Under the pieces are notes generated by a model. The model did no database searches and was not told where the DNA came from. It saw only the letters and a program-made list of their open reading frames with translations. The position numbers were made by a program, and so were the translations under genes. DNA of 51,959 nucleotides from Candidatus Kuenenia stuttgartensis (GTDB taxonomy: Bacteria > Planctomycetota > Planctomycetia > Planctomycetales > Planctomycetaceae), in assembly GCA_945861465.1 (NCBI GenBank), contig CAMAVB010000019.1:1-51959 (forward strand), read 5' to 3'. This document shows, piece after piece, positions 26,884 through 47,744 of the stretch (the stretch's first letter is position 1; every line of letters starts with the position of its first letter).

Positions 26884-27345
26884 GGGTGGCCCAGCTTCGG
26901 AGAAGCTGGGTGCCGAAGGCACAAGAAACTCAGAGTTGACCTTCCAACAGGAACGACGTCATTCTTTGATTCGATGTATCCACTGAGTTTCTTGTGCTGC
27001 GCACCCAGCTTGAAACAAGCTGGGCCACCCAGAAGGGAACTGGGGGTTCGTCGGGTGGCCCAACTTCGGAGAAGTTGGGTGCCGACGGCACAAGAAACTC
27101 AGAGTTAACCTTCCAACAGGAACGACGTCATTCTTTGATTCGAAGTATGCCCTGAATTTCTTGTGCTGCGCACCCAGCTTGAAACAAGCTGGGCCACGCC
27201 GCGACCCAGCTTCGGAGAAGCTGGGTGCCGAAGGCACAAGAAACTCAGAGTTGACGTTCAAACGGGAACAACGTCATTCCTTGATTCGATGTGCGCACTG
27301 AGTTTCTTGTGCTGCGCACCCAGCTTGAATCAAGCTGGGCCACCC
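26884..27345. repeat. Three tandem ~145-bp hairpin repeats
   Basis: Units at 26884-27030, 27053-27197 and 27203-27345. Each starts GGGTGGCCCAGCTTCGGAGA or a close form, runs through GGCACAAGAAACTCAGAGTT and ends in the near complement (TGAGTTTCTTGTGCTGCGCA... to AGCTTGAAACAAGCTGGGCC). Each unit therefore forms a stem with arms of about 45 bp around a middle containing AACGACGTCATT. Units differ by a few bases. They fill most of the gap between the convergent glgP and feoB genes. No coding sequence is credible. Confidence 0.9.
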
Positions 27346-32801: not shown

Positions 32802-35800
32802 TCACTCGATCGTGATTTCGTCAATATCGAATTCCAGCTGATCCTGCGGGACCTCGTTGACGCCACTGATGGATTGCAGCCATTCATTGGAAGGCCAGTT
32901 GAACGGTCGGAAACGGTCGGCTGTTCCAGTTTGATCGCGATACAGGATTGCACGGCCCGGGCTGAGCGCCGCAGCCACCGGGGTGTCGATCAGGCTGGCC
33001 GAATCCGTCTGATTCAGACGGAATGCAATGCGGTTGTCGAATTCACGCAGCAGCGACGTCGATAACCAGCGCATGGCGTTGCTGAAGGTGTCGGACCAGA
33101 TTATCACATGAATTCCCACCAACGGCCCCTTGCGAATCAGGTCACCCAGCATCGTCGCTGATGTCGCTGCCTTTGCCGCACCGAAGCCCGCCAATCCATA
33201 ATCGTCTTCATCGCGCCGCAGCGAACGAAACTGCCCGATGTTGCGGATTGCCAGAATCAACTCCGGGCTATCAGGCGGAGCATCTCCGCTTTCCCGCGCT
33301 GTCATTTGCAGCCAGAGATCGCTCACGACGGAATCCGCTTCTATGGCTTCGGCAAGGCGAAACCGTCGCGCAATTTCCGGCGTAAATGTTTCGGCAAATC
33401 GTGCCTGGGACGCTCGATCTCGTCCATCGTGCAGCAATGTGAGCTGCGATGTTCTGTCGTCCGGTGGTTTGGGAGAACCGACTGACCAGCTCACGATCAT
33501 GGATGCCAGAATTGTGTCGGCCAGATCTCCTTCCTGGCCAACAATCAACACGTTCTGGCCACCGGACCGCCGAAACTCCACGCACATTGGTGCGGCGATT
33601 GCCACAGGTTCGCCGATCCATACAGGCAGAGTATCAACAAAGTGTCGCGTGGCATCCGGCGTACTGGAAAGCCATGCGTTGAGTGGACTGCAAAGTTCCA
33701 GGCTGGGGGCGACATTGCCTTCAAAGACGATCATGCGGCTGTCGGAATTTTGACGATAGTCGGGCCGCTGAATCATGGCGAGGATCATTGATTCTCGCTT
33801 CGCTTCATCCAGCCATGCGATCTGAAACGGATGATTGCCTTCGACCATCCCATTGGCGTCGTTGTAGATCGCTTCGCCAGGGCGCGTCAGCAGGCGGGCA
33901 GCAGAATTCTCTTCGCTCAGGATTAAATGTGCGTCGCTTTCACTGCACTGCAGTGCAATTCTCACTCCCACTTGTCCCATTGTGCTGCGGGCGAGTGAGT
34001 ACGCTCCTCCCAACGTCTGCGAACCAAGAATTACATGAATTCCAAACGCTCGGCCCTGTCGCACGAGGCGGTCAAGCAGTAGCGATGCACGGGACGAAAC
34101 ACGGTCCTCGGTTGTGAAGAATTCCTGAAACTCATCGATCAGCAACAGCAGCCGCGGCGTCCGTTCGCCAGGAAACTGTCGGCGGAACGAAGGAACATCC
34201 TGCACGCCCCGGATACGAAACAACTCACCTCGTTCCTGGAGGACTTCGTCGAGGCGTTCCAGAACGCTCAAACCAAATTCGCGATCACTCTCAATCGCCA
34301 CGACGCGGGCATGAGGCAGCTTATTGGCAGCGTAGGTGCGAAATTCAACGCCCTTCTTAAAGTCGATGAGATAAAACTGAATTTCATCAGGACTGTAGTA
34401 CAGCGCCAGATTTGTGATCAAAATATGCAACAGCGTAGATTTCCCGGAACCAGTCTTTCCAGCCACAAGGACGTGCTGACTGGTGCCGCGCCCCAGTCTC
34501 ATGAACTGCAGACGCGCCGCACCTGCCCGCCCGATCGGAATATCCAGTCCGTCGGCGGAGCATTGGCTCCAGATGGCCTCAGGTTTCGGAGCGATGCGAC
34601 TAAACGAAACTTCCACTCGTCTCGCGTCACGCGACTGTTCACCCACAGCGCGGACCAGCCTGACGTAGTCTGCAGAATCCGGTGGTGCGAATGATTCGAA
34701 TTCGATTGAACTCGGCGACGCAAGACTCGGAATGACATGGCCATCTGTGACCGTAAACTCTGTACAGCATTCGTGCAGATCGTTGATGTCGAACGAGCGT
34801 GGAATCGGCTGATTCGGGGACCATGTCACGATCGCATGCACGCCACACCGCGGGCCGCTGGTGATGATGCTGGTCAAATGGCGAGCCGCCTCTTCGGTAA
34901 ACGCAGCGGGAAATCCGGCGACGACCACAAAATGATATGGTTCCGCGACCTCGCCCGCAGCGGCGTTGTAGTCTTCGATCGATTCAAATTCACTGCGAAG
35001 ATATGTCTGAAAGACACTCTCCATGTGTTCGGTCACTTTTTGAAGACGGTCGCGAATTTGTGTCGCATCGGTCCAGATACGGTTACTGATCAGGAGTTCG
35101 TCGAAGTCTGCAAGGTGCATCAGAGCGGAAAAGCTCTGTCCCAGTCCCACTGGATCGATGAGCGTAAACTGAACTCGCCCCGGCATGATGCTGGTCAGCA
35201 GCCGCAACAGAATCGAACGCACAAATTCCAGAGCTGGTTCGCGACCCGCCGCATCGTGTTCAATCGCAATCGATGTGTCGCGGGGAAAATTCAGAATGGC
35301 TGGCAATTCAAGGCAGAGGTTCGCAGCTGGTTCTCGACCATCGCCCTGCGGCGGTGCGGGAAGCGTCGCCAGCAGATCACCGATCGGCAACGCTTCAGGG
35401 AGCGACGTCGGTACATTCCAGTTGGCACCTCGCATCTGCGACCACCGGGGAAATGTGGCGACCCGTTCGCGACTGCTGCGGGCCAGTGCCCGCGCAATGG
35501 CAATATCCGCCTTCCACTGTGTCATTGTGTCCGATTCTTCGGCGAGCAGTGATTTGCGTTTTGCCGACGTGCGTGTGACCATCGCAGCAAGTGACTGATC
35601 GTGTTCGGACTCCAATGTCGCCTGAATTCGTGCGATCTCCTGTCCTCGCCAGATCTCGACAGCGGATTGCTGCCGCGCCGATTCGGCCTCATGTGCCGCA
35701 ATTTGTTCCTGAGTCAGCTTTTCAACGCGTGAAATTTGATCGTTGTAAGCATTCGTGCGACCGCAGATCAGTTCGTCTGCTGCTTTCTGCAGCTTTGCCG

Positions 35801-36857
35801 AGTGCTGTTCGCGATGTTGCACCATGGCGGTCTTCCAGGTATCCGCAGCCGCATCCACACGCTTCAATTCCTGTTGACTTTTCTGCGACCAGTATTCAAT
35901 GGCGGCTTTGGCGTTGGCCACATGCTGCAACATTTCCTCATAGCCCGCTCGGAGCCGTGACTGCACCAAAACCAGCAAAACCGTTCCGCACAACACGGCA
36001 GTCGCGGCACCGATCAGGCAGGATACGCCAAACCAGTGCCAGTCCGGCTTCTGCAGTTCAGGATTCAGGAACAATCGCAGGTCGGCCCGGACTCCGGTCG
36101 CTACGATGGCAACGACGAAGAAAATCAACAGCGTCAGTCCCCAGATTCGAAGACCGCATATCCATTGAGGCAGACTCTGGCGATCAATCAAACCGGCGGA
36201 CGCCATGGCCCGATCGCACTGCTCCATCGCGAGAGCATGACTGGCTTCGCGGCCTTTGATCTGCACATTGACTGGGGGTATGGTTGAATCCGTACCGGCA
36301 TGACAATGATCAAGATACTTGCAGGTGAATTGAACTCTGGCATCCAGATCGCTCAATTGTTGTGCCGCGAACGTCTGCTGCGTCTGAAAGATTTCATGCG
36401 CACGTTCAGCTTCGCGCACCGGAGTGTCTTCATTCGATTCGTCACACACAGACTGCAAAACCCAGAGTTCGCTCTGAAGTCTCTGGCGAATGGTAGCCGT
36501 ATCCACTTTGACGACCGCCACCAGGTCACTCAATTTACGCTCGCGCGAATCACGGGCTGCTTCACGTACGCTGCTGATGTCATGTTCGCACTGCATCAGT
36601 CGATCTTGAACAGCCTGACCCATTCGCTCCAACTGCACCCGTAATTCTGATTCGTACCGACTTTGAATGGAGCCCGTCAACTCCGATTCCTGATCGGTCA
36701 GTTCCGCCAACTGCCGTCGCACAGAATTGACCACATCCCGCGCGGCGACACATCGGGCACGAATTCGTTCCAGTTCCAAAGTCTGCGAGTCAAGGTTGAC
36801 TGATGCCGTAGCCATGATGGCAATCTCAGAGGGTCTGTACTTCAGGATTTCGTCCAT
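32802..36857 (-). CDS. Coiled-coil FtsK/SpoIIIE-type ATPase, EccC-like
   Basis: A 1351-residue membrane ATPase. Residues about 24-225 are charged coiled coil, two membrane helices lie at about 237-255 and 278-298, and a second coiled coil runs to about 465. Three FtsK-like modules follow. The first (about 515-760) lacks a P-loop. The second is complete: Walker A G-K-T-G-S-G-K-S (800-807), I-D-F-K-K-G-V-E-F, Walker B L-L-L-L-I-D-E-F (903-910), Q-G-R-A-F-G-I-H-V-I-L-G-S-Q. The third has a decayed P-loop (L-I-V-G-Q-E-G-D, about 1104-1111). Several tandem FtsK modules behind two helices resemble EccC/YukB ATPases of type VII secretion rather than DNA-pumping FtsK, which has four helices and a gamma domain. 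No WXG100 substrate or other Ecc gene is nearby. Internal ATG at 36815 is an alternative start. Confidence 0.85.
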   Translation of the reverse strand: MDEILKYRPSEIAIMATASVNLDSQTLELERIRARCVAARDVVNSVRRQLAELTDQESELTGSIQSRYESELRVQLERMGQAVQDRLMQCEHDISSVREAARDSRERKLSDLVAVVKVDTATIRQRLQSELWVLQSVCDESNEDTPVREAERAHEIFQTQQTFAAQQLSDLDARVQFTCKYLDHCHAGTDSTIPPVNVQIKGREASHALAMEQCDRAMASAGLIDRQSLPQWICGLRIWGLTLLIFFVVAIVATGVRADLRLFLNPELQKPDWHWFGVSCLIGAATAVLCGTVLLVLVQSRLRAGYEEMLQHVANAKAAIEYWSQKSQQELKRVDAAADTWKTAMVQHREQHSAKLQKAADELICGRTNAYNDQISRVEKLTQEQIAAHEAESARQQSAVEIWRGQEIARIQATLESEHDQSLAAMVTRTSAKRKSLLAEESDTMTQWKADIAIARALARSSRERVATFPRWSQMRGANWNVPTSLPEALPIGDLLATLPAPPQGDGREPAANLCLELPAILNFPRDTSIAIEHDAAGREPALEFVRSILLRLLTSIMPGRVQFTLIDPVGLGQSFSALMHLADFDELLISNRIWTDATQIRDRLQKVTEHMESVFQTYLRSEFESIEDYNAAAGEVAEPYHFVVVAGFPAAFTEEAARHLTSIITSGPRCGVHAIVTWSPNQPIPRSFDINDLHECCTEFTVTDGHVIPSLASPSSIEFESFAPPDSADYVRLVRAVGEQSRDARRVEVSFSRIAPKPEAIWSQCSADGLDIPIGRAGAARLQFMRLGRGTSQHVLVAGKTGSGKSTLLHILITNLALYYSPDEIQFYLIDFKKGVEFRTYAANKLPHARVVAIESDREFGLSVLERLDEVLQERGELFRIRGVQDVPSFRRQFPGERTPRLLLLIDEFQEFFTTEDRVSSRASLLLDRLVRQGRAFGIHVILGSQTLGGAYSLARSTMGQVGVRIALQCSESDAHLILSEENSAARLLTRPGEAIYNDANGMVEGNHPFQIAWLDEAKRESMILAMIQRPDYRQNSDSRMIVFEGNVAPSLELCSPLNAWLSSTPDATRHFVDTLPVWIGEPVAIAAPMCVEFRRSGGQNVLIVGQEGDLADTILASMIVSWSVGSPKPPDDRTSQLTLLHDGRDRASQARFAETFTPEIARRFRLAEAIEADSVVSDLWLQMTARESGDAPPDSPELILAIRNIGQFRSLRRDEDDYGLAGFGAAKAATSATMLGDLIRKGPLVGIHVIIWSDTFSNAMRWLSTSLLREFDNRIAFRLNQTDSASLIDTPVAAALSPGRAILYRDQTGTADRFRPFNWPSNEWLQSISGVNEVPQDQLEFDIDEITIE

Positions 36858-37172
36858 GATTGTAGTCCGGCAGTGTCACACACCGTGAGCAGAACGACAA
36901 TTGAATTCTCAAGTCCCTGACCCAGCCCCGGAAACGACGCCATTCCCTGGAAAACGCGACCTCACCCGCACTGTCCGCCGCATTCTTCCGTTTTCCCGCA
37001 AACTTGACAGAATGTGTGAATGCGGCTGCAAGGTGCATGTCCAGCATGAACATCCAATCGCAGCATATTGCCCAGCGGCACTCTACGGGCGGATGACTGT
37101 TTGCGGCACAACAGTCTTCGTTTCGGCAGTTTTTTTCAGTGGCGGCTGCGTTGGCTGACTCGACTCGGAGAG
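36858..37172. other. Upstream region of the FtsK-type gene
   Basis: About 315 bp between the small minus-strand gene and the FtsK-type gene. Open frames are present but unconvincing. It contains the first of the two 47-bp direct repeats and should contain the FtsK-type promoter. Confidence 0.45.
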
Positions 37173-37237
37173 TCAAGCTACGGAAAACTCTTTTTCAGTG
37201 GCGGCTGCGTTGGCTGACTCGACTCGGAGAGTCAAGC
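37132..37237. repeat. Two 47-bp direct repeats with a GACTCGACTCGGAGAGTC core
   Basis: 37132-37178 and 37191-37237 are direct copies (59-bp period) beginning TTTTTCAGTGGCGGCTGCG and ending GAGAGTCAAGC. Each holds the small palindrome GACTC...GAGTC. Two copies of GGCGGTTTTAACGG follow at 37243-37256 and 37260-37273. A related core is at 15254-15273. The second copy encodes the C-terminal end of the small gene 37173-37505 on the minus strand. Confidence 0.88.
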
Positions 37238-38650: not shown

Positions 38651-40228
38651 GTGCCAAAGGTCTTGCATTGTTCATACTGGCTGGTTGTGTTGGTGATCAT
38701 CCTCGATTGGTCTACGACAGCGACCGCTCAGTTGCCGAACTCCGGTCAGGAGTTTGGCATCGAACCGGGACCGATGTGTGGTTCCTGTGCGCCCAGCCAG
38801 GAATCATTTGGCGGGCCGGAATGGTACGGTGCCGGATCTGAATCTTACGATTCAGGTCTCTTCACGAGTCAGTGCGGCTGTGATGCAGCGATGCCAATTC
38901 CCGGGGGAGATCCGGGCGTGCAAATGCCATATCCCGGACAATTCGGCGTTCAGCCGTATGGCTATTCCGATTGTGGCATGATGCCAGGTGCCTGCGACTT
39001 CGCAGCACCGTTTGGAACCCAGCCAGGTTGCGGTGATTACAACAGTTGCGCACCGGGCGGTTACAGTTGCTCCCCCGGCGAATGTTACGACCCCGGCGAT
39101 TGTGGTGTTCAACAGTTTTGTCCCTGCGGAAACGCGCCACAGTGGTGGTTCGGTGCAGAGGCGCTGATCTGGAATACCACTTCTTCGGGAATGCCGCCCC
39201 TGGTGACAACCAGCGAGACTGGCACTCAACAGTATGATGCAGGCGTGCTGGGACGACCAACGACCCAGACGCTCTATGGGGGCGGCAACATCTTCGGTGG
39301 AACTCAAGGCGGTTATCGTCTGCGTGGCGGTCACTATATTGACCCATGCGGCATGAGTGGTGTCGATGCAGAGTTTTTCATGCTTGGCACCCGGAATGCG
39401 AACTATCATAATGATTCAACCGGTGATCCGATTCTGGCGCGACCATTCCTGAACGCTCAAACAGGGCTGAATGATGCACAATTGGTCGCTTTCCCGGACC
39501 TTGCCAGCGGCACGATTGACGTGAGTGCCCAGTCAAATCTGTACTCCGGTGCCCTTCACTATCGCGAGGTTTTCTGGAAAGACTGCGACTCTGTCAACGG
39601 GTGCTCTCAGTATTGCAGCCACGGTCAACACAGCTCGACGTTGGGATTTCAAATCGGCCCGCGTTTTGTCAATCTGCGAGAATCGTTCGGTTCGAACGAG
39701 AGACTGACGAGTCTGGAAACTTCAGCACAGTTTCAGATTCAGGACTCATTTCGAACGAAAAACCTCTTCCGTGGTTGCGAACTGGGATTGTTTGGATCTC
39801 ACCGGGGAGGACGTTGGACTCTGGACGGCGGTATGCGTTTAGCAATTGGTGCCACAGATCAGGAACTGGATGTTTCTGGACAGACGGCAGTGACTCAAGC
39901 GGGCACAACGACCACAAGCCCCGGTGGCTTCCTGGCCCAGCGCACGAATTCAGGCTCCTGGGACCGTAATCGTTTTTCTCTGATTCCGCAATTTGACGCC
40001 TCCCTCGGATTAAGGATGACCGACACATGGACCGTCTCTGTCGGCTACAGTCTCCTTTATTGGGGTCAGGTGCTGCGCGCCTCGGAGCAAATCGATCCGG
40101 TCCTGAATCCGGGGCTGCTTCCTCCCGAACAAGTTCCATTGACGGGCGAGCTGCGTCCTCAAACGTTGTTGCATGAGTCAAACTACGTGGCACATGGGAT
40201 TACGATCGGGCTGGAAAAACGCTGGTAA
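38651..40228 (+). CDS. BBP7-family outer-membrane beta-barrel protein
   Basis: A 525-residue exported protein started by GTG, with AAAGGA upstream. Residues 1-26 are a signal peptide (L-V-V-L-V-I-I-L-D-W-S-T-T-A-T-A-Q). Residues about 30-175 are rich in Cys, Gly, Pro and Tyr (for example C-G-S-C-A-P, G-E-C-Y-D-P-G-D-C-G), suggesting a disulfide-knit surface or periplasmic region. The rest is a BBP7 (PF07585)-like barrel starting at W-W-F-G-A-E-A-L-I-W, with L-R-G-G-H-Y, F-Q-I-G-P-R-F-V-N-L-R-E-S-F, and the end G-I-T-I-G-L-E-K-R-W with terminal aromatic, as in outer-membrane barrels. The family is almost confined to planctomycetes; function is unknown. The giant surface protein follows after 238 bp. 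Confidence 0.9.
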   Translation: MPKVLHCSYWLVVLVIILDWSTTATAQLPNSGQEFGIEPGPMCGSCAPSQESFGGPEWYGAGSESYDSGLFTSQCGCDAAMPIPGGDPGVQMPYPGQFGVQPYGYSDCGMMPGACDFAAPFGTQPGCGDYNSCAPGGYSCSPGECYDPGDCGVQQFCPCGNAPQWWFGAEALIWNTTSSGMPPLVTTSETGTQQYDAGVLGRPTTQTLYGGGNIFGGTQGGYRLRGGHYIDPCGMSGVDAEFFMLGTRNANYHNDSTGDPILARPFLNAQTGLNDAQLVAFPDLASGTIDVSAQSNLYSGALHYREVFWKDCDSVNGCSQYCSHGQHSSTLGFQIGPRFVNLRESFGSNERLTSLETSAQFQIQDSFRTKNLFRGCELGLFGSHRGGRWTLDGGMRLAIGATDQELDVSGQTAVTQAGTTTTSPGGFLAQRTNSGSWDRNRFSLIPQFDASLGLRMTDTWTVSVGYSLLYWGQVLRASEQIDPVLNPGLLPPEQVPLTGELRPQTLLHESNYVAHGITIGLEKRW

Positions 40229-40466
40229 GCCAGGAAGATGCGATTTCCCATGGGCCAGGGCAAGCTCCACACCGGGATGAACGAGAAATTTTCATTGACC
40301 GCGGTTGGGTTGCACCCTTGATCACTGTGCAGCCTGTTCTGCTATCACAAGACCGACGGCCAGGTCTGCGACCAGGGTTTCGATGTTGCCGTCTGTGTCA
40401 TGCCCGTTCAGTTATCTTCAGGTTGCCTGATTGAAATCAAGACGTTTTCGAGAGAGAAAGATTCAA

Positions 40467-43400
40467 ATGACACATCATCGATGGCTCGCCGGTCTCGGAC
40501 ACATTATCAACAGGCAGCACCGTCGCAGGCGGACCCAGCGTGACCTGCGTACGCCTGCGGCAGAGCTGCTGGAAACAAAAGTGCTGCTCACCGCCAATAC
40601 CCTGGGACTGATCCAGGGAACTGTCTTCAATGACGTGACGGGGAATGGACTGTCTGGCGGGGATCCGCTGCTGAATGCCGTCAATGTCCAGTTGTATCGC
40701 GACGGCGGCAACCTGACGTTTGACAATGGCGGTGCGGATGACACGCTGGCAGGCACAATGACCACTGGTCCCGCAGGCACATTTTCGTTCAGCGATCTGG
40801 CGGCAGGCCGCTATTTCGTGCGCCAGCAGCCAGTCGTCGGCTACATGCAGCGAGTCGGCGAAAATGTGGTCACCGTCAATATCTCTGCTGCAGATGCCCT
40901 GGGTTCACCAGGCATTCTGATTGACGATTTTGCGTCGCCTGTCAGCCCGGGACAGACACTGTCCGCAGATGCAGCAGGCGTTGCCACGGCGAGTTCGTTT
41001 TCGCCGGCCGTGACTGCGATCGGGGGCGAACGCGATATGGTCGTGACTGCGACGCTGGACATTATCGGATTTGAAGCCAATGGCGCGGCATTCCCGGGCA
41101 ACCTCGCCTACAACGCCAATATCGGAGCGACTGGTCGATCTCGCGTCGTATGGGACGGTGCCGACAATAACGCGACAACGCTGAGTCCCTCCGGCCTGTC
41201 GGGTGCGAACCTCACGGCGCTGGGGGAAACGGGCTTCGTGTTGAATATCGGAACCAGTCAACCGGTCACGCTTTCACTCCTGGTGCATTCTGGTTCCGGA
41301 AATTCATCAACCGCAACAGTCAGTCTGCCAACGACTGGAACCGATTCAATGTACATACCGTACTCATCGTTCGTGACGACGACCGGGAGCGGGGCAGATT
41401 TTGCAAACGTCGGGGCAATCGAATTTCTGACGGAAGCTGCGACGCCCGGCACGACGACGACGACCGACTTGATCCGAGCGCAGTCGCCTACGCGATTCAC
41501 CGCCAACTTTGCCAACTTCGTCCCGATGACGCTGGGGAATCTGGTCTTCAATGACGTGAATAACAGCGGGCTGTTTGATTCATCAACGGAAGTTGGAATC
41601 GACAGCGTCGCGATGACGCTGTTTCAGGACACAAATTCCAACAATATCTTTGACAGCGGCACTGACCTCCAGGTTGCGACAACAACGACTGCCGGTGGCG
41701 GCCTGTACTCTTTTGGAAATTTGTTTCCTGGCAACTATCTCGTCCGCATTGATGCCAGCAACTTTGGTGTCGCGGGTGTATTGCAGGGTTTCCAGTCGAG
41801 TACCGGCAACGGCGCTGCTCCGGATGCGGATGTCGTGACGACGGACGGCGATGACAATGGCGATGCACTCGGCAGCGCGATCTTGTCGTTGGGGATTACG
41901 CTCTCAAACGGACAGGAACCAGTCAACGACGGTGACGCGAATCCGAATACGAATCTGAGCCTTGATTTTGGTGTGTTTACTACGGTCGATATTGTCGTCA
42001 CCAAGACAGATAACGCAGACCCAGTCATCGCAGGCAGCGGCGCTGGCAATCTGGTCTATACAGTGACGGCGACAAATTCAGGGCCTGGTTCGGCAACCGG
42101 TGTGACAATCAGCGATACGGGTGTGCTTGCAGCGAATCTGCCGGCAGGTGTGACGTTTGTGTCAGCTGTCGGCAGCGGAGGCAGTACGTTCAACACATCG
42201 ACCGGAGTCTGGACAATCGGAGCACTGGCATTCGGCGATTCGAGGAATCTGGTTGTGACGCTGACGGTTGGTGCTTCGGCATCCGACACGCTGGTGATCA
42301 CAAACACGGCGTCACTTGCGACAGTGAACGAAATAGAAGTCGATGCCGGACAGGGTAATGATTCGGCAACGAAAACGACTAGTGTGGACCGCATCGTCGA
42401 TATCGCGGTCACGAAGGCAGGAAGCTCAGATCCGGTTATCACTGGCAGCGGTCCCGGCAATCTGGTCTACACGGTGATCGCGACGAACGCCGGACTTTCC
42501 GATGCGTCCGGCGTAACACTGAGCGACACTGGAATCATCCCGGCAAATCTTCCGGCAGGTGTCACGTTTGTCTCTGCCATCGCCAGTGGCAGCACCACGT
42601 TTAACAGTACGACTGGCGTCTGGACAATTGGAAATCTCGCGGCGGGAGCTTCGGTAACTCTGACGGCAACTCTGACCGTCGGTGTTTCTGCAGCGGACGA
42701 CGTGAATATCAACAATACGGCTTCGTTGCTGAGCGTTAATGAAACAGATTCTGTTCAATCCAACAACAGTGCAACTGTCAGTACGGACATTGTAGACAGA
42801 GTGGATATCGCGGTCACAAAGGTGGCTGTTCCCGTGACAGTGACGGCTGGGAGTGGTGTCGGCAATCTGGTCTACACTGTTTCCGCTCGCAACAACGGCC
42901 CGTCCAATGCTTCGGGAGTGTCGATCAGCGACGTCGGTATCCTTGCCGCCAATCTTCCGGCGGGCGTCACATTTGTCTCTGCTGTCGGCACTGGCAGTAC
43001 CACATTTGACACTGCGACCGGGATCTGGACCCTCGGAAATCTTTCGCCAAACGCAACGGAGGCTCTTACCGTGACACTCACGGTCGGGGCCTCAGCCACC
43101 GATAACGCGGTGATCGTCAATACTGCGTCGCTGAATAGTGTGAATGAGCTTGATATGGTCGGAGACAATAATTCGCAGAGTATCAACGTCACTGTCCGTC
43201 GGGACGTCGATATCGTTGTCACTAAAGTGGCGAATGCAAATCCGATCGTTGCTGGCAGTGGTGTCGGCAACCTTGTTTACACAATTACGGCAACCAACGC
43301 CGGACCATCCAACGCATCCAATGTGGCATTGCTGGATTCTGATGTTCTTGCGGCAGCTCTGCCTGCTGGCGTGACTCTTGTTTCCGCCGTCGGCAGTGGA

Positions 43401-46400
43401 GGTACAACATTTAACTCCACAACTGGAGTGTGGACGATTGGTAATCTGGCGACAGCCGGATCGGCGACTTTGACCGTAACGCTGACCGTCGGTGCCGCCG
43501 CAGCGAACAACCTGGTATTCAACAACACGGCATCACTGACGACCCTGAACGAAACCGATCGTAACCTGACGAACAACAGTCAGACCGTCGTGACAAATGT
43601 CGCGCGGGAAGTTGATATTCAGGTTGGGAAATCCGCCGCTCCGGCGTCAGTCATCGCGGGTAGCGGTGCAGGAAATCTTGTTTACATCGTCACCGCTCGA
43701 AACATCGGCAAATCGGATTCATCAGGGGTCACAATCACCGACACGGATATTCAGGCGGCCAATCTGCCCGCCGGAGTGACCCTCGTCTCCGCAGTCGGCA
43801 GCGGCAATTCGACTTATAGTGCAGCGACGGGAATCTGGTCCGTCGGAAATCTGGCGGCTGGAGCTACGGCCACATTGACGGTCACGCTCACTGTCGGTGC
43901 ATCCGCATCAGACACGCTCACGATCAACAACACTGCCGCCTTGGCGGCTGTCAATGAAACTGACACAGTCTCAACCAACAACAGCCAGACCGTCATGACG
44001 AACGTCGATCGAAGTATCGATCTCGCCGTTTCAAAATCGACGGTCAACAATCCCGTCATTGCCGGAAGTGGTATCGGAAATCTGATCTACACGATTACGA
44101 CACGCAACATCGGTCCGTCGGATGCGTCAGGCGTCACAGTCCGCGATAATGCGCTGCTCGCCGCTAATCTGCCTGTCGGGGTCACGCTGGTCAGCGCGAT
44201 CGGCGATGGTGGTTCAACCTACAATTCTGCGACAGGAATCTGGACGATAGGCAATCTTGCCGCGACAGTCACGCGAACTCTGACGGTCACTGTGACCGTC
44301 GGAGCGGCTGCTGTCCCGCAGACTTTCAACAACACGGCGGAAGTCACGGGTGTGAATGAAATCGATGTCAATCTGAACAACAACAGCGCTTCGGCCACGA
44401 CCATGTTCAATCGCTCGGTCGATGTTCAAGTTACGAAAACTGCCACTGCAGGGCCTGTGATTGCCGGCAGTGGAATCGGCAATCTGGTTTACATTGTCAC
44501 AGCTCGCAATAACGGGCCATCGAATGCGTCCGGAGTTGCCGTTGACGATCCCGGAATTCTCGCGGCGAATCTGCCTGCAGGCGTCACGCTGGTCTCTGCC
44601 ACCGCCAGCAACGGGTCCACGTTCGATGCGACTACTGGAATCTGGACGATCGGCAGCCTGGCGAGCAACGCCGCCGTGACGCTCACCGTCACGCTGACCG
44701 TCGGCGCTTCCACGACCGACGGTCTGACGATTTCGAATACGGCGACGCTTTCGATGGTCACGGAAACCGATTCCAACCTGCAAAACAACCAGCAGACGGT
44801 GACCACCGAAGTTGATCGTCGCGTGGATATTGTCGTCACGAAGACCGCAAACGCTCAATCTGTCTCAGCCGGAAGCGGTGCCGGAAATCTGGTTTACACG
44901 GTGACAGCGCGAAATGCCGGAAGCTCCGATGCCACGGCTGTCACGATCTCTGACCCCGGCGTTGTGGCTGCAAACCTGCCAGCCGGTGTGTCATTTGTAT
45001 CGGCTGCCGGCAGTGACGGTTCAACGTTTGACAACACATCTGGCATCTGGACCATCGGCAGTCTTGCTGCTGGTTCCTCACGAACATTGACGATCACGCT
45101 GACGGTCGGTGTCACGGTTGTAGACGGGGTAATCATCAACAACACCGCTGCTGTGGCGACTGTGAACGAGACCGAAACCAATCTGCTGAACAACACTCAG
45201 TCCACTGCGACTGCCGTCATCGGCGCTATCGATCTGGTGGTGGTCAAGACCGGAGCGCCGAATCCTGTGCTCTCGCCAGGATTGCTGACCTACACCGTTC
45301 GTGTGACAAACACCGGAACAGGTACGGCAACCGGTGTCGTGCTCACCGACAACCTCGGTCCAGGCATGACGTTTTCATCAGGCACATCGACGCAGGGAAC
45401 CGTCACGTATGCCAACGGGATCGTGACCACGACGATCGGCACTTTGAATGGCGGTGCCTCCGCCACGCTGACACTGGTTGCCAGCGTCAATGTAGCAATT
45501 GCCGGCACGCTCGTGAATACAGCGTCGGCCATGGCCGATCAGAATGACCCTGATCCGGACGACAACACGACCTCGATTCAGACTCAGGCTCTGCTCGCAC
45601 CTGCCTCCGTGAGCGGTGCAGTGTTTCAGGACCTCAATCGCAATGGAATCCGCGATTCAGGCGAACGACCGATTTCAGGCGTTCAGATTGTGCTGTTCGG
45701 AACCGATGTGAACGGTGCATCTGTGAATACCCAAATGTTTACAAACGCTAACGGTGCCTGGTCCTTCGTCGATCTTGAGCCCGGGGTCTACAACGTCTAC
45801 GAAATTCAGCCTGGCCTTTATCTTGACGGCAGTGAAGTTGCGGGCACGGGGGCAACCGCCACAGTTGTCAACGATGCTTTCCTTAACATGCGGCTGAATC
45901 CCGGGGTCAATGCGACTGGGTTTAACTTCACAGAGGGTATCGAAGATCCATCGAAACGTCCGTTCCTCGCGTCCAGCCAGAATGCCGGCCAATCACTGAT
46001 TGTGTCTCTGCCGGTCGCAGGTACCGGAAGTCTGAGCGGCATGGTGGCGACGGATTCCAACCGCAACAGTCTGCTCGACAGCGGCGACATTGGCATTCCG
46101 AGCGTCATCGTAACGCTGGCCGGAAGCGATGCGGCCGGAAATCCGGTTCTGGTTCATCAGTCCACCGATTCACTCGGAAGGTTCTCGTTTGCGGGCCTCC
46201 CATCAGGGCAGTACAGCATTCGCCAAACGCAGCCAAAGGGCAAGACAGACGGCCCTGAACAGCCAGGTACGATTCTCCCCGATCAGGTTCTGGATGATCT
46301 CTTTTCCGGCATCTCGCTGCCGAGCGGCGGAGTGGGCACGGGCTATAATTTCCTTGAACTGCCTGCGACGGCTGGCACAACCACAGCAACATCTCCGACG

Positions 46401-47744
46401 CTGCTGACGCCAACGACAAGCAACACTGGACTTCGACCGACGATTTCCTGGACGCCATTGGCTACGTCGGCCCGCTACGATGTTTCGGTCCTCCAGATTG
46501 CCGGGAACAAGGGCGAAGTCTACCGCAATCAGAACGTGTCCGGCACGTCGATTACCATTCCAGCCGATCTTGCGTTAGGTGCCCACCGCGTCTGGGTGCG
46601 CTCAGTGAATGCTGCGGGCGTCGCGGGACCGTGGAGTCAGCCGTTGTCATTTAATGTGGCAACTCAAGCGAACGCACTGGCGGTCAAGGGCGTCAGCATG
46701 AACGCTCGTCCGACACTGGACTGGGCTGATGTCCCGAACGCGACGTCATACGATATGCGGCTGATCAACGTGGAAACCGGCACGGTTCTGGCAAACGTGA
46801 GCAACCTGACATCGTCACAATACTCTGGCCTTTCAGAGCTGCCGCCTGGCAAGTATCGCTACTTTGTCCGTGGTAACACGGTTTCAGCCACAGGACTGTG
46901 GTCGGATGGCTATGACTACACGATCCTGTCAATCCCAACACTGAAGACAGTGACCGCCACAAACACGGCGACACCGACGTTGCACTGGAACCCGGTCGTT
47001 GGTGCTGTGACTTACGAGGTCTACCTGTCGGACCTGTCGGCGACCGGCGGAGCAAAACGCATCGCGAGTGTGGACAAGACAAACGCAACGTCGATGCCCG
47101 TTCCGACAAACCTTGAACTTGGAAACTATCGTTACTGGGTGCGCGGCATCGATTCACAGGGAAAGATGACATCCTGGAGCAGCCCGACAGACTTCAAGGT
47201 CGAGACTGCCGGGAAAATTACCGGCCCGGCTGGGACAACAAATTCTGCCACTCCCACCATCACCTGGAAGCAGGTTGCCGGTGCCGTGCGTTACGACGTC
47301 TGGGTGGCTGATAAATCCGGGAACGTATATCTTCGGGACCACAACGTTACCGGCACTTCGTACACGCCAACGAAGGCATTCCTCAACGGCGACTATCGCG
47401 TCTGGGTCATGCCGATCGGCAGGACAACCTCCGGCAATTGGTCATTTGCATCTGACTTCACGGTCAAGGTGACGCCACGTCCGACTCTGACTTCTCCAGG
47501 AGCCACTTCAAACAGCACGCCAACCTTCAACTGGACGCCCAGCACTGGTGCGGTGCGGTACGAGTTGTTGGTCAACAAAGTCGGTGTTTCATCCAATGTG
47601 ATTCGCCAGACCAACCTAACGACCAACTCATTTAAAGCCACGATGCCACTCACTTCCGGCTTGTACCGCGTCTGGGTCCGCGCCTTCGACAGCGCAGGTC
47701 TCGCCAGCGTCTGGAGTGCCGCCCTGGACTTCCGTGTTGTCTGA
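40467..47744 (+). CDS. Giant LEPR-XLL / SdrD-B / DUF11 / FN3-type surface protein
   Basis: A roughly 2425-residue secreted or surface protein. In order: a basic N terminus with a LEPR-XLL-like export motif (A-E-L-L-E-T-K-V-L-L-T-A-N) and no classical signal peptide; two SdrD-B-like domains with calcium-type Asp/Asn loops (V-F-N-D-V-T-G-N-G; V-F-N-D-V-N-N-S-G); eight near-identical DUF11 repeats and one diverged ninth (from about residue 508); two more SdrD-B-like domains (F-Q-D-L-N-R-N-G-I-R-D-S-G; D-S-N-R-N-S-L-L-D-S-G); and five fibronectin-III-like repeats to the end. There is no membrane anchor or LPXTG. The frame is open from a TTG at 40431, but the ATG at 40467 has an AGAGAGAAAG site before it. 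Adhesion or a structural surface role is inferred. Confidence 0.9.
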   Translation: MTHHRWLAGLGHIINRQHRRRRTQRDLRTPAAELLETKVLLTANTLGLIQGTVFNDVTGNGLSGGDPLLNAVNVQLYRDGGNLTFDNGGADDTLAGTMTTGPAGTFSFSDLAAGRYFVRQQPVVGYMQRVGENVVTVNISAADALGSPGILIDDFASPVSPGQTLSADAAGVATASSFSPAVTAIGGERDMVVTATLDIIGFEANGAAFPGNLAYNANIGATGRSRVVWDGADNNATTLSPSGLSGANLTALGETGFVLNIGTSQPVTLSLLVHSGSGNSSTATVSLPTTGTDSMYIPYSSFVTTTGSGADFANVGAIEFLTEAATPGTTTTTDLIRAQSPTRFTANFANFVPMTLGNLVFNDVNNSGLFDSSTEVGIDSVAMTLFQDTNSNNIFDSGTDLQVATTTTAGGGLYSFGNLFPGNYLVRIDASNFGVAGVLQGFQSSTGNGAAPDADVVTTDGDDNGDALGSAILSLGITLSNGQEPVNDGDANPNTNLSLDFGVFTTVDIVVTKTDNADPVIAGSGAGNLVYTVTATNSGPGSATGVTISDTGVLAANLPAGVTFVSAVGSGGSTFNTSTGVWTIGALAFGDSRNLVVTLTVGASASDTLVITNTASLATVNEIEVDAGQGNDSATKTTSVDRIVDIAVTKAGSSDPVITGSGPGNLVYTVIATNAGLSDASGVTLSDTGIIPANLPAGVTFVSAIASGSTTFNSTTGVWTIGNLAAGASVTLTATLTVGVSAADDVNINNTASLLSVNETDSVQSNNSATVSTDIVDRVDIAVTKVAVPVTVTAGSGVGNLVYTVSARNNGPSNASGVSISDVGILAANLPAGVTFVSAVGTGSTTFDTATGIWTLGNLSPNATEALTVTLTVGASATDNAVIVNTASLNSVNELDMVGDNNSQSINVTVRRDVDIVVTKVANANPIVAGSGVGNLVYTITATNAGPSNASNVALLDSDVLAAALPAGVTLVSAVGSGGTTFNSTTGVWTIGNLATAGSATLTVTLTVGAAAANNLVFNNTASLTTLNETDRNLTNNSQTVVTNVAREVDIQVGKSAAPASVIAGSGAGNLVYIVTARNIGKSDSSGVTITDTDIQAANLPAGVTLVSAVGSGNSTYSAATGIWSVGNLAAGATATLTVTLTVGASASDTLTINNTAALAAVNETDTVSTNNSQTVMTNVDRSIDLAVSKSTVNNPVIAGSGIGNLIYTITTRNIGPSDASGVTVRDNALLAANLPVGVTLVSAIGDGGSTYNSATGIWTIGNLAATVTRTLTVTVTVGAAAVPQTFNNTAEVTGVNEIDVNLNNNSASATTMFNRSVDVQVTKTATAGPVIAGSGIGNLVYIVTARNNGPSNASGVAVDDPGILAANLPAGVTLVSATASNGSTFDATTGIWTIGSLASNAAVTLTVTLTVGASTTDGLTISNTATLSMVTETDSNLQNNQQTVTTEVDRRVDIVVTKTANAQSVSAGSGAGNLVYTVTARNAGSSDATAVTISDPGVVAANLPAGVSFVSAAGSDGSTFDNTSGIWTIGSLAAGSSRTLTITLTVGVTVVDGVIINNTAAVATVNETETNLLNNTQSTATAVIGAIDLVVVKTGAPNPVLSPGLLTYTVRVTNTGTGTATGVVLTDNLGPGMTFSSGTSTQGTVTYANGIVTTTIGTLNGGASATLTLVASVNVAIAGTLVNTASAMADQNDPDPDDNTTSIQTQALLAPASVSGAVFQDLNRNGIRDSGERPISGVQIVLFGTDVNGASVNTQMFTNANGAWSFVDLEPGVYNVYEIQPGLYLDGSEVAGTGATATVVNDAFLNMRLNPGVNATGFNFTEGIEDPSKRPFLASSQNAGQSLIVSLPVAGTGSLSGMVATDSNRNSLLDSGDIGIPSVIVTLAGSDAAGNPVLVHQSTDSLGRFSFAGLPSGQYSIRQTQPKGKTDGPEQPGTILPDQVLDDLFSGISLPSGGVGTGYNFLELPATAGTTTATSPTLLTPTTSNTGLRPTISWTPLATSARYDVSVLQIAGNKGEVYRNQNVSGTSITIPADLALGAHRVWVRSVNAAGVAGPWSQPLSFNVATQANALAVKGVSMNARPTLDWADVPNATSYDMRLINVETGTVLANVSNLTSSQYSGLSELPPGKYRYFVRGNTVSATGLWSDGYDYTILSIPTLKTVTATNTATPTLHWNPVVGAVTYEVYLSDLSATGGAKRIASVDKTNATSMPVPTNLELGNYRYWVRGIDSQGKMTSWSSPTDFKVETAGKITGPAGTTNSATPTITWKQVAGAVRYDVWVADKSGNVYLRDHNVTGTSYTPTKAFLNGDYRVWVMPIGRTTSGNWSFASDFTVKVTPRPTLTSPGATSNSTPTFNWTPSTGAVRYELLVNKVGVSSNVIRQTNLTTNSFKATMPLTSGLYRVWVRAFDSAGLASVWSAALDFRVV
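41989..45225 (+). repeat. Eight in-gene tandem repeats of about 405 bp (DUF11)
   Basis: Units begin near 41989, 42395, 42801, 43206, 43611, 44014, 44418 and 44826, each encoding V-D-I-x-V-T-K ... A-G-S-G-x-G-N-L-V-Y-T-V. A ninth, shorter and diverged unit starts near 45222. Period is about 405 bp (135 residues). Protein identity is high and DNA identity lower, with many silent changes, so the expansion is not recent throughout. Confidence 0.9.

Follow-up and report, generated by a model that had tools for sequence, protein, structure and literature searches.

An EccC/EssC-like ATPase in a planctomycete genome

The window analyzed here is the whole of a 51,959-nucleotide stretch of DNA from the planctomycete Candidatus Kuenenia stuttgartensis, and our subject is a gene on its reverse strand (32802-36857), an open reading frame (ORF) that runs from ATG to stop without interruption and encodes a protein of 1351 residues. 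An earlier reading made from the letters of the DNA (the sequence-only reading) had described this protein as an orphan FtsK-type ATPase, with long coiled coils around two membrane helices and three FtsK-like modules of which only the middle one is intact, and had suggested that it might drive an undescribed secretion or translocation system with partners elsewhere. Genome comparisons show that the ATPase is co-inherited with three small proteins, here called A, B and C, whose genes form an operon with it in most relatives and are scattered but kept in the lineage of the window.

Most of the described layout held up. In an alignment of 81 ATPase rows, Walker A was present in module 2 of every row and absent from module 1 (0/81) and module 3 (0/80), and the corresponding counts for Walker B were 81/81, 0/81 and 1/80. 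Because all aligned rows share this pattern, catalytic motifs confined to the middle module are a family trait and not a result of chance decay. In the same alignment module 1 is conserved, module 2 very conserved and module 3 weaker; the mean column identity of module 1, taken over 31 rows, is 64%. Module 1 had been called decayed; it does lack catalytic motifs, but judging from the alignment it is a conserved domain without them and is not decaying in the window's genome. Transmembrane (TM) segments, called by hydropathy only, numbered two in the first 500 residues of 61 of the 81 rows, at least three in 13, one in 6 and none in 1. The coiled coils fared less well. Both presumed regions are charged and poor in Pro/Gly (3.9% in residues 25-228 and 2.4% in residues 305-470), but the heptad-like period is weak, being equalled by 23 of 500 shuffles in the former and 163 of 500 in the latter.

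Pfam FtsK_SpoIIIE matched the ATPase at 135 bits (best stretch, residues 794-948). Among NCBIfam models the scores were 109.8 bits for EccCb, 97.3 for EccCa, 95.1 for EssC and 27 for FtsK, all below cut-offs. The best sequence match in the PDB was EccC (4nh0, E 2.6e-34), and the same entry was the top Foldseek match (E 2.5e-32) of an AlphaFold model of residues 470-1351 (predicted local distance difference test, pLDDT, 81.3; predicted template modelling score, pTM, 0.68). The structure prediction that the sequence-only reading had proposed for the modules thus resembles the tandem-ATPase structures of EccC/EssC. Membership in the FtsK/SpoIIIE group was considered and rejected on the basis of the EccC and FtsK scores (109.8 vs 27 bits), the lack of Ftsk_gamma among Pfam matches at E<=1 and the lack of a long C-terminal domain. 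The gamma domain or close DNA-translocase match that would have spoken against the earlier reading did not appear; the median number of residues beyond module 3 is 13, and the seven tails longer than 60 residues are of low complexity by eye.

By sequence, module 2 is nearest to EccC/EssC. Its profile scores were higher with EccC ATPase1 (71-82 bits) than with ATPase2 (27-52 bits; domains numbered by chain order), and module 3 scored best with EccC ATPase2 (7np7, 27.6 bits). Module 1 gave poor matches only (13.6 bits, E 0.29, with an ATPase2 stretch of an EssC chain, and 20.2 bits with the first domain of EccCb). The membrane-proximal domain of EccC is inactive. If module 2 is ATPase1 and module 3 is ATPase2, module 1 would be the counterpart of this inactive domain, and the layout may be that domain followed by ATPase1 and ATPase2, with ATPase3, the C-terminal domain by which the export signal is bound, missing. 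Opposed to such a layout, the weak matches of module 1 are ATPase2-type, and in a VIA-align comparison with the three-domain structure 4nh0 (Z 27.5, 743 residues, root-mean-square deviation, rmsd, 15.9) modules 1-2-3 aligned to ATPases 1-2-3; two-domain EssC (4lya) gave Z 28.5 over 492 residues. Sequence and structure thus assign the modules to different EccC ATPases. The contrast drawn earlier with EccC, whose membrane-proximal module was said to be the active one, is unsafe, since the sequence matches would pair module 1 with an inactive domain.

An acidic motif of the DIDEITIE or DLSSWTVL type forms the very end of 34 of the 81 ATPase rows, including that of the window, and could possibly serve as a docking peptide. 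In two relatives (L034 and L036) this motif comes after ~390 residues of Pro/Ala-rich linker. The ATPase is single copy in the window's genome (E<=0.001); the only other match (213 residues, 33% identical), in an 840-residue frame, may be the ordinary FtsK of this organism.

An operon with three small genes

A contig scan for the ATPase yielded 389 relatives, of which the best 80 were taken as loci, and distant relatives are therefore under-sampled. Clustering all ORFs of these loci detected three small genes directly upstream of the ATPase (A in 45, B in 48 and C in 58 loci). We restricted the operon count to loci having 2.5 kb or more of upstream sequence, of which there were 63, and excluded 17 shorter ones. 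The arrangement A-B-C-ATPase was found in 43 of the 63, with the same order and strand and within 2.5 kb in all 43; the other 20 had C only (8), B and C (1) or none of the three (11). The genomes of these 20 loci were searched for A and B, and both proteins were present in every one (A 20/20, B 20/20), with A adjoining B in 16. In one of them (L105) B is the copy adjacent to the ATPase, and another (G207, of L066) shares contig coordinates with G087 of the 199-genome sample described below and so adds no new genome. A further operon partner was rejected: the 45 largest ORF clusters common to several loci were inspected, and apart from the four genes no cluster occurred in more than 13 of 81 loci. 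Seeds for hidden Markov models numbered 31 (A), 36 (B) and 48 (C) after a length filter. Alignments A1, A2 and A3 consist of 16, 14 and 23 hand-picked rows, A4 of the window plus 48 of 69 rows, A5 of 40 of 48 rows, and A6 and A7 each of the window plus 30 of 40 rows.

The window's genome contains a single strong match for each partner, as had been suspected when partners were placed elsewhere: A at C22:8393-8662(-) (E 1.3e-40, ORF of 90 residues), B at C74:15746-16306(-) (E 3.2e-73, 200 residues) and C at C16:23894-24124(+) (E 1.1e-23, 82 residues), on three contigs other than that of the ATPase. The label of orphan is therefore correct for the neighborhood, as no relatives of A, B or C were found among window ORFs of at least 50 residues (E<1e-3), but not for the genome, and a lone broken EccC was rejected because the partners are present. 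The A protein of this genome had no Pfam WXG100 match at E<=0.001 and scored 18.3 bits with NCBIfam TIGR03930 (cut-off 44.85). The assembly is a draft of 474 contigs with an estimated contamination of 3.7%. However, contig breaks do not explain the scattering, since A, B and C each lie at least 8 kb from contig ends, and the like scattering in relatives on single contigs argues against a mix-up.

Co-occurrence and scattering in Planctomycetota

Of 199 Planctomycetota genomes, 24 contain the ATPase (E<=1e-30), and precisely these also contain A (E<=1e-10); B (E<=1e-10) and C (E<=1e-5) were found in 23, namely all ATPase carriers except G107. Several B and C matches were first listed with internal stops; in a check that covered all of them, every match (24/24 A, 23/23 B and 23/23 C) lay in one frame that has no stops and spans 70% or more of the model. 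The co-occurrence has p ~2e-31 if genomes are independent, a value inflated by kinship and linkage, and genomes in which the linkage is broken are thus the better test. All four genes are together in 13 of the 24 carriers, G107 has A with the ATPase, and seven genomes, all of the window's family, have them scattered. In G076, G124 and G139 the genes are split across contigs and linkage cannot be judged. The single-contig genome G105 has the four genes at 0.23, 0.71, 1.94 and 2.66 Mb; in G152 the ATPase (3.51 Mb) is separated from A-B-C, which adjoin one another at 4.23 Mb; G024 has B and C together, and A and the ATPase each apart. Three other genomes of the window's family (G048, G069 and G181) had none of the four at the set E limits.

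The Pfam WXG100 model, which was built without these sequences, matched at E<=0.001 in 24 of the 199 genomes, namely 23 carriers and G028 (21.5 bits), and above its cut-off in 19, all of them ATPase carriers. B is nearly always single copy (19 of 20 genomes in the non-operon set), as are A and C. On a quick, unrooted ATPase tree of 92 rows (11 of one set of 23 loci included, 19 rows without a label), the clade of the window lies among operon-keeping clades and the scattered state needs four changes, compared with a mean of 13.0 in shuffles.

The locus in G107 (L194:5041-11568) is divergent. It has A, followed by a 1006-residue ATPase without TM segments and a 983-residue protein with three hydrophobic segments, and no B or C was found in G107. 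The membrane part may have been split off the ATPase in this organism.

Partner proteins

Protein A is a WXG100-family hairpin of ~90 residues and of the "WRD" type: the turn is W[R/E]D in 45 of 45 sequences and an EEYLQQR-like end is present in 43. Three chosen examples scored 28.5, 40.2 and 43.5 bits with Pfam WXG100 (cut-off 27.3). The suggestion to look for co-occurring small helical-hairpin proteins was therefore productive, with at least one hairpin of this family recovered. Protein C is a hairpin of ~75 residues with WxD in 59 of 59 sequences, and only weakly resembles WXG100 in Pfam, where four sequences were scanned and two of them scored 12.9 and 20.3 bits.

Protein B, of ~200 residues, is a long helical hairpin. 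Its structure model (pLDDT 86.6) consists of a single such hairpin, formed by helices 10-76 and 87-158, and a disordered tail; the best VIA-align Z was 10.8, within the usual range for long helices. Pfam detected no domain above cut-off in three B proteins of ~200 residues. Long B proteins of 339-357 residues (L076:7804-8856, L087:8476-9492 and L100:4524-5594) end in a domain like Imm33 (PF24719; 32.7 and 42.6 bits, and 21.0 in L100; cut-off 27), a family named after immunity proteins. No nuclease domain was recognized on the B proteins scanned, which were, out of 48, the three of ~200 residues (Pfam), that of the window's genome (NCBIfam) and the three of 339-357 residues.

Relatives on plasmids

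Five plasmids carry ATPase relatives (27-32% identity, E<=1e-20). A search with the planctomycete A model picked up a partner in four of them, with E-values (for the few dozen proteins searched) of 2e-25 in Caballeronia, 5e-17 in Helicobacter, 4e-13 in Rhodococcus sp. AH-ZY2 and 6e-9 in Deinococcus; the match in the Rhodococcus pseudokoreensis plasmid is weak (E 0.005). The gene order on the Helicobacter plasmid is A-like protein, a helical protein ending in WHH/colicin-DNase, SMI1/KNR4, a 77-residue protein and the ATPase. Since a nuclease is encoded there, the position of B is that of a toxin in at least one mobile relative. On the Caballeronia plasmid the order is VWA, A-like, proteins of 436, 113 and 76 residues, ATPase, CARF, VWA, PP2C and kinase, and on the Rhodococcus and Deinococcus plasmids the small genes are downstream of the ATPase. 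Matches of the B model to the helical plasmid proteins were weak, with a best E of 6e-5 for which coiled-coil composition is a possible cause, or absent. On the R. pseudokoreensis plasmid (L200), the ATPase relative comes after Hsp70, a TPR protein and GrpE and is followed by genes for 203, 86 and 272 residues. Among 50,697 phage records, there was no place covering 80% of the ATPase.

Neighborhood of the gene in the window

Features of the ATPase gene are listed in Table 1. Nine neighboring ORFs of the window were examined with Pfam (E<=0.01). Seven had matches (phosphorylase, FeoB, semialdehyde dehydrogenase, sigma-70, cytidylyltransferase-like, BBP7 and DUF11/SdrD) and two had none. EccB, EccE, MycP, EssA, EssB and EsaA were not among the matches of these nine neighbors; no genome-wide search for them was made. 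Upstream of the ATPase gene (37132-37237, reverse strand), a 47-base stretch, gcttgactctccgagtcgagtcagccaacgcagccgccactgaaaaa, was seen by eye twice in near-tandem; Tandem Repeats Finder did not call it at score 50. Two overlapping tandem arrays (26884-27343; periods 169 and 146, ~two copies each) lie between the phosphorylase and FeoB genes. A BBP7 porin-like gene (38651-40228) adjoins the gene of a 2437-residue surface-type protein in which DUF11 occurs nine times alongside SdrD-like domains (40431-47744, forward strand).

Table 1. Features of the ATPase gene in the window
Feature	Position	Strand	Basis
EccC/EssC-like FtsK-family ATPase, 1351 residues	32802..36857	-	ORF; profile and PDB matches
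Charged helical region at the N terminus, residues 25-228, presumed coiled coil	36174..36785	-	low Pro/Gly; weak heptad signal
TM helix 1, residues 231-264	36066..36167	-	hydropathy; 81-row comparison
TM helix 2, residues 275-302	35952..36035	-	hydropathy; 81-row comparison
Second charged helical region, residues 305-470	35448..35945	-	low Pro/Gly
Module 1, residues 525-712, without catalytic motifs, highly conserved	34722..35285	-	alignment
Module 2, residues 785-1000, intact ATPase	33858..34505	-	Pfam, profiles, alignment
Walker A GKTGSGKS, residues 800-807	34437..34460	-	alignment
Walker B LLLLIDE, residues 903-909	34131..34151	-	alignment
Module 3, residues 1078-1334, degenerate	32856..33626	-	profiles, alignment
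Acidic C-terminal motif DIDEITIE	32805..32828	-	window's row and other ATPase ends

Proposed function and alternative explanations

The sequences show a motor that has a single catalytic module and a pair of TM segments, together with three helical partners that are retained alongside it. Very probably the ATPase powers a system of several proteins, the others being encoded elsewhere in the genome. With a probability of about 0.6, we propose from the gene sequences that it sits in the inner membrane and drives a type VII-like machine of four proteins that exports protein. In such a machine, the ATPase would form a hexamer anchored in the membrane through the TM pair and the flanking helical regions, module 2 would hydrolyze ATP, and modules 1 and 3 would be structural or regulatory. 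A and C might associate with B in the way that LXG carriers are bound by WXG100-like targeting factors in the type VII secretion system (T7SS) of the T7SSb kind, and the motor would recognize the resulting helical bundle and drive it through the inner membrane. B is probably a carrier or cargo from which the toxin domain is absent, because it takes the place of the helical nuclease in a related plasmid operon; it is likened to LXG carriers by the position of its gene, as there is no fold match at E<=0.001.

Several observations weigh against this putative export machine. The curated EccC/EssC cut-offs were missed by far (346.55 bits for TIGR03925, 509.15 for TIGR03924 and 778.4 for TIGR03928, vs 109.8, 97.3 and 95.1), and on module 2 alone VIA-align puts FtsK motor domains (Z 30.3) above EccC/EssC (27.5-28.5). 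G107 carries A and the ATPase and no detected B or C. YukD/EsaB (PF08817) was found in 4 of the 24 carriers and 15 of the 175 other genomes (Fisher p 0.26) and not in the window's genome, and was rejected as a fifth component for want of association. B had no Foldseek match at E<=0.001. The T7SS signal YxxxD/E was present in the tails (last 45, 80 and 45 residues) of 0 of 45 A, 4 of 48 B and 1 of 59 C proteins, and FxxxD/E in 0, 7 and 5, respectively; recognition would therefore differ from that of the classical T7SS. In addition, the authors of PMC11090510 anticipate that kin without TM helices do not act by classic secretion.

One alternative is that, as may be the case in CoCoNuT islands, the helical proteins assemble on a membrane-tethered ATPase as an intracellular conflict or sensing complex and that nothing is secreted. 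The nearest described kin, which have no TM helices, do reside in defense islands with VWA, PP2C and kinase genes (PMC11090510, and the Caballeronia plasmid); the PADLOC defense ATPases SspH (96 bits, E 2.8e-28, residues 795-947) and mad8 (77.8 bits, E 2.4e-22, residues 792-1001) match our protein, though in module 2 alone; and some B proteins carry the Imm33-like domain. We nevertheless regard such a complex as unlikely. The ATPase of the window has two TM helices, the four genes lie up to megabases apart on single-contig genomes and form no island, and no fixed defense genes accompany the operon, since no other cluster (A, B, C and overlapping frames aside) passed 13 loci among the 45 largest. 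Less likely still, the ATPase could be anchored in the membrane to translocate DNA or handle the chromosome, its helical arms resembling those of SMC proteins. In favor of this, a good superposition was obtained between module 2 and the FtsK motor 6t8b_C (rmsd 2.6 over 271 residues, at the Z of 30.3 given above), and SMC coiled coils are among the weak Foldseek matches of B (best E 6e-3). On the other side stand the closer similarity of the ATPase to EccC than to FtsK, its short C-terminal end, the second FtsK-like match, which may already represent an ordinary FtsK, and the tight link with WXG100 proteins.

A further alternative concerns the cargo. A, B and C could all be machine parts, with a variable effector encoded elsewhere as the exported protein, and we consider this a real possibility, somewhat short of an even chance. 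Toxins are usually variable; B is conserved and, like A and C, nearly always single copy. Targeting factors separate from effectors are described in T7SSb (PMC9600955). However, no candidate cargo was found, with one strong match each for A, B and C in the window's genome; no wider cargo search was made.

Returning to the four-protein export machine, a tentative scenario, one we would sooner doubt than assert, is that a mobile toxin-export cassette was domesticated in planctomycetes. In these bacteria with two membranes it would have settled into a minimal type VII-like secretion machine, stably kept and anchored in the membrane, with four proteins and one working ATPase module, in which the toxin-free carrier is itself exported, perhaps as a structural protein, and the four genes were kept by selection after the operon broke up. 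Most work on type VII secretion has concerned Gram-positive bacteria and mycobacteria. A four-gene version in two-membrane bacteria would offer a compact test case for the requirements of the type VII core and for the passage of cargo through an outer membrane. Gene-neighborhood methods miss this system in the lineage of the window because the genes are scattered; a genome profile finds it.

Comparison with known systems

Close kin of the ATPase have been described, and in this respect the system is less novel than the sequence-only reading supposed. An ATPase that is associated with WXG100 proteins and active in its middle module alone was noted in 2012 (PMC3482391, Table 1 footnote 6); it is presented there as a "distinct YueA-like ATPase" with solo WXG domains and called mobile. 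The footnote mentions neither B nor C and says nothing of TM helices, of co-occurrence or of scattered genes, and in contrast to a mobile element the planctomycete genes lie far apart on megabase contigs in several genomes. PMC11090510 describes an EssC-like ATPase in Type III-A CoCoNuT islands, with the central D2 alone active, an N-terminal coiled coil and no TM helices, accompanied by two WXG100 proteins (one without WxG) and a coiled-coil nuclease, and cites Anantharaman 2012 for a stand-alone mobile version. The planctomycete system shares with that cassette the three FtsK modules with an active central one, the N-terminal helical region, the two WXG100-type proteins, one lacking WxG, and a coiled-coil protein in the operon; WXG100 genes in the operon are true of the relatives, whereas the window's genome has them scattered. 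It differs in that the ATPase has two TM helices, no toxin domain was recognized on the B proteins scanned and the genes are in no island with VWA, PP2C and kinase neighbors. No account of the planctomycete operon, of the B and C proteins, of the TM-anchored form or of the scattering was found in a search of open-licence papers, and in its planctomycete, TM-anchored four-gene form the system may still be called undescribed.

EccC (T7SSa) and EssC/YukB (T7SSb) gave the best sequence and Foldseek matches, and are likewise membrane-bound tandem FtsK ATPases with a WXG100 partner. Two N-terminal TM helices precede the tandem modules in the planctomycete protein as in EccC/EssC (by hydropathy), and the WXG100 partner A is present in 24 of 24 carriers, above the Pfam cut-off in 19. 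Unlike EccC/EssC, which have four NTPase domains according to PMC11217815, the planctomycete ATPase has three modules, lies far under the curated cut-offs, and has neither a YukD partner nor the YxxxD/E signal. The LXG effector with Lap1/Lap2 of T7SSb (PMC9600955) is similar by architecture only, as a helical carrier with two small WXG100-like helpers; no sequence match was seen, and FxxxD/E is rare in A and C. The FtsK/SpoIIIE DNA translocases share the motor fold of module 2, but the planctomycete protein has no gamma domain that we could see, one active module of three and other partners. Thus, kin ATPases are already known, while the TM helices, a B protein without a recognized toxin domain, and genes that are scattered yet jointly kept look undescribed and distinguish the planctomycete system from its relatives.

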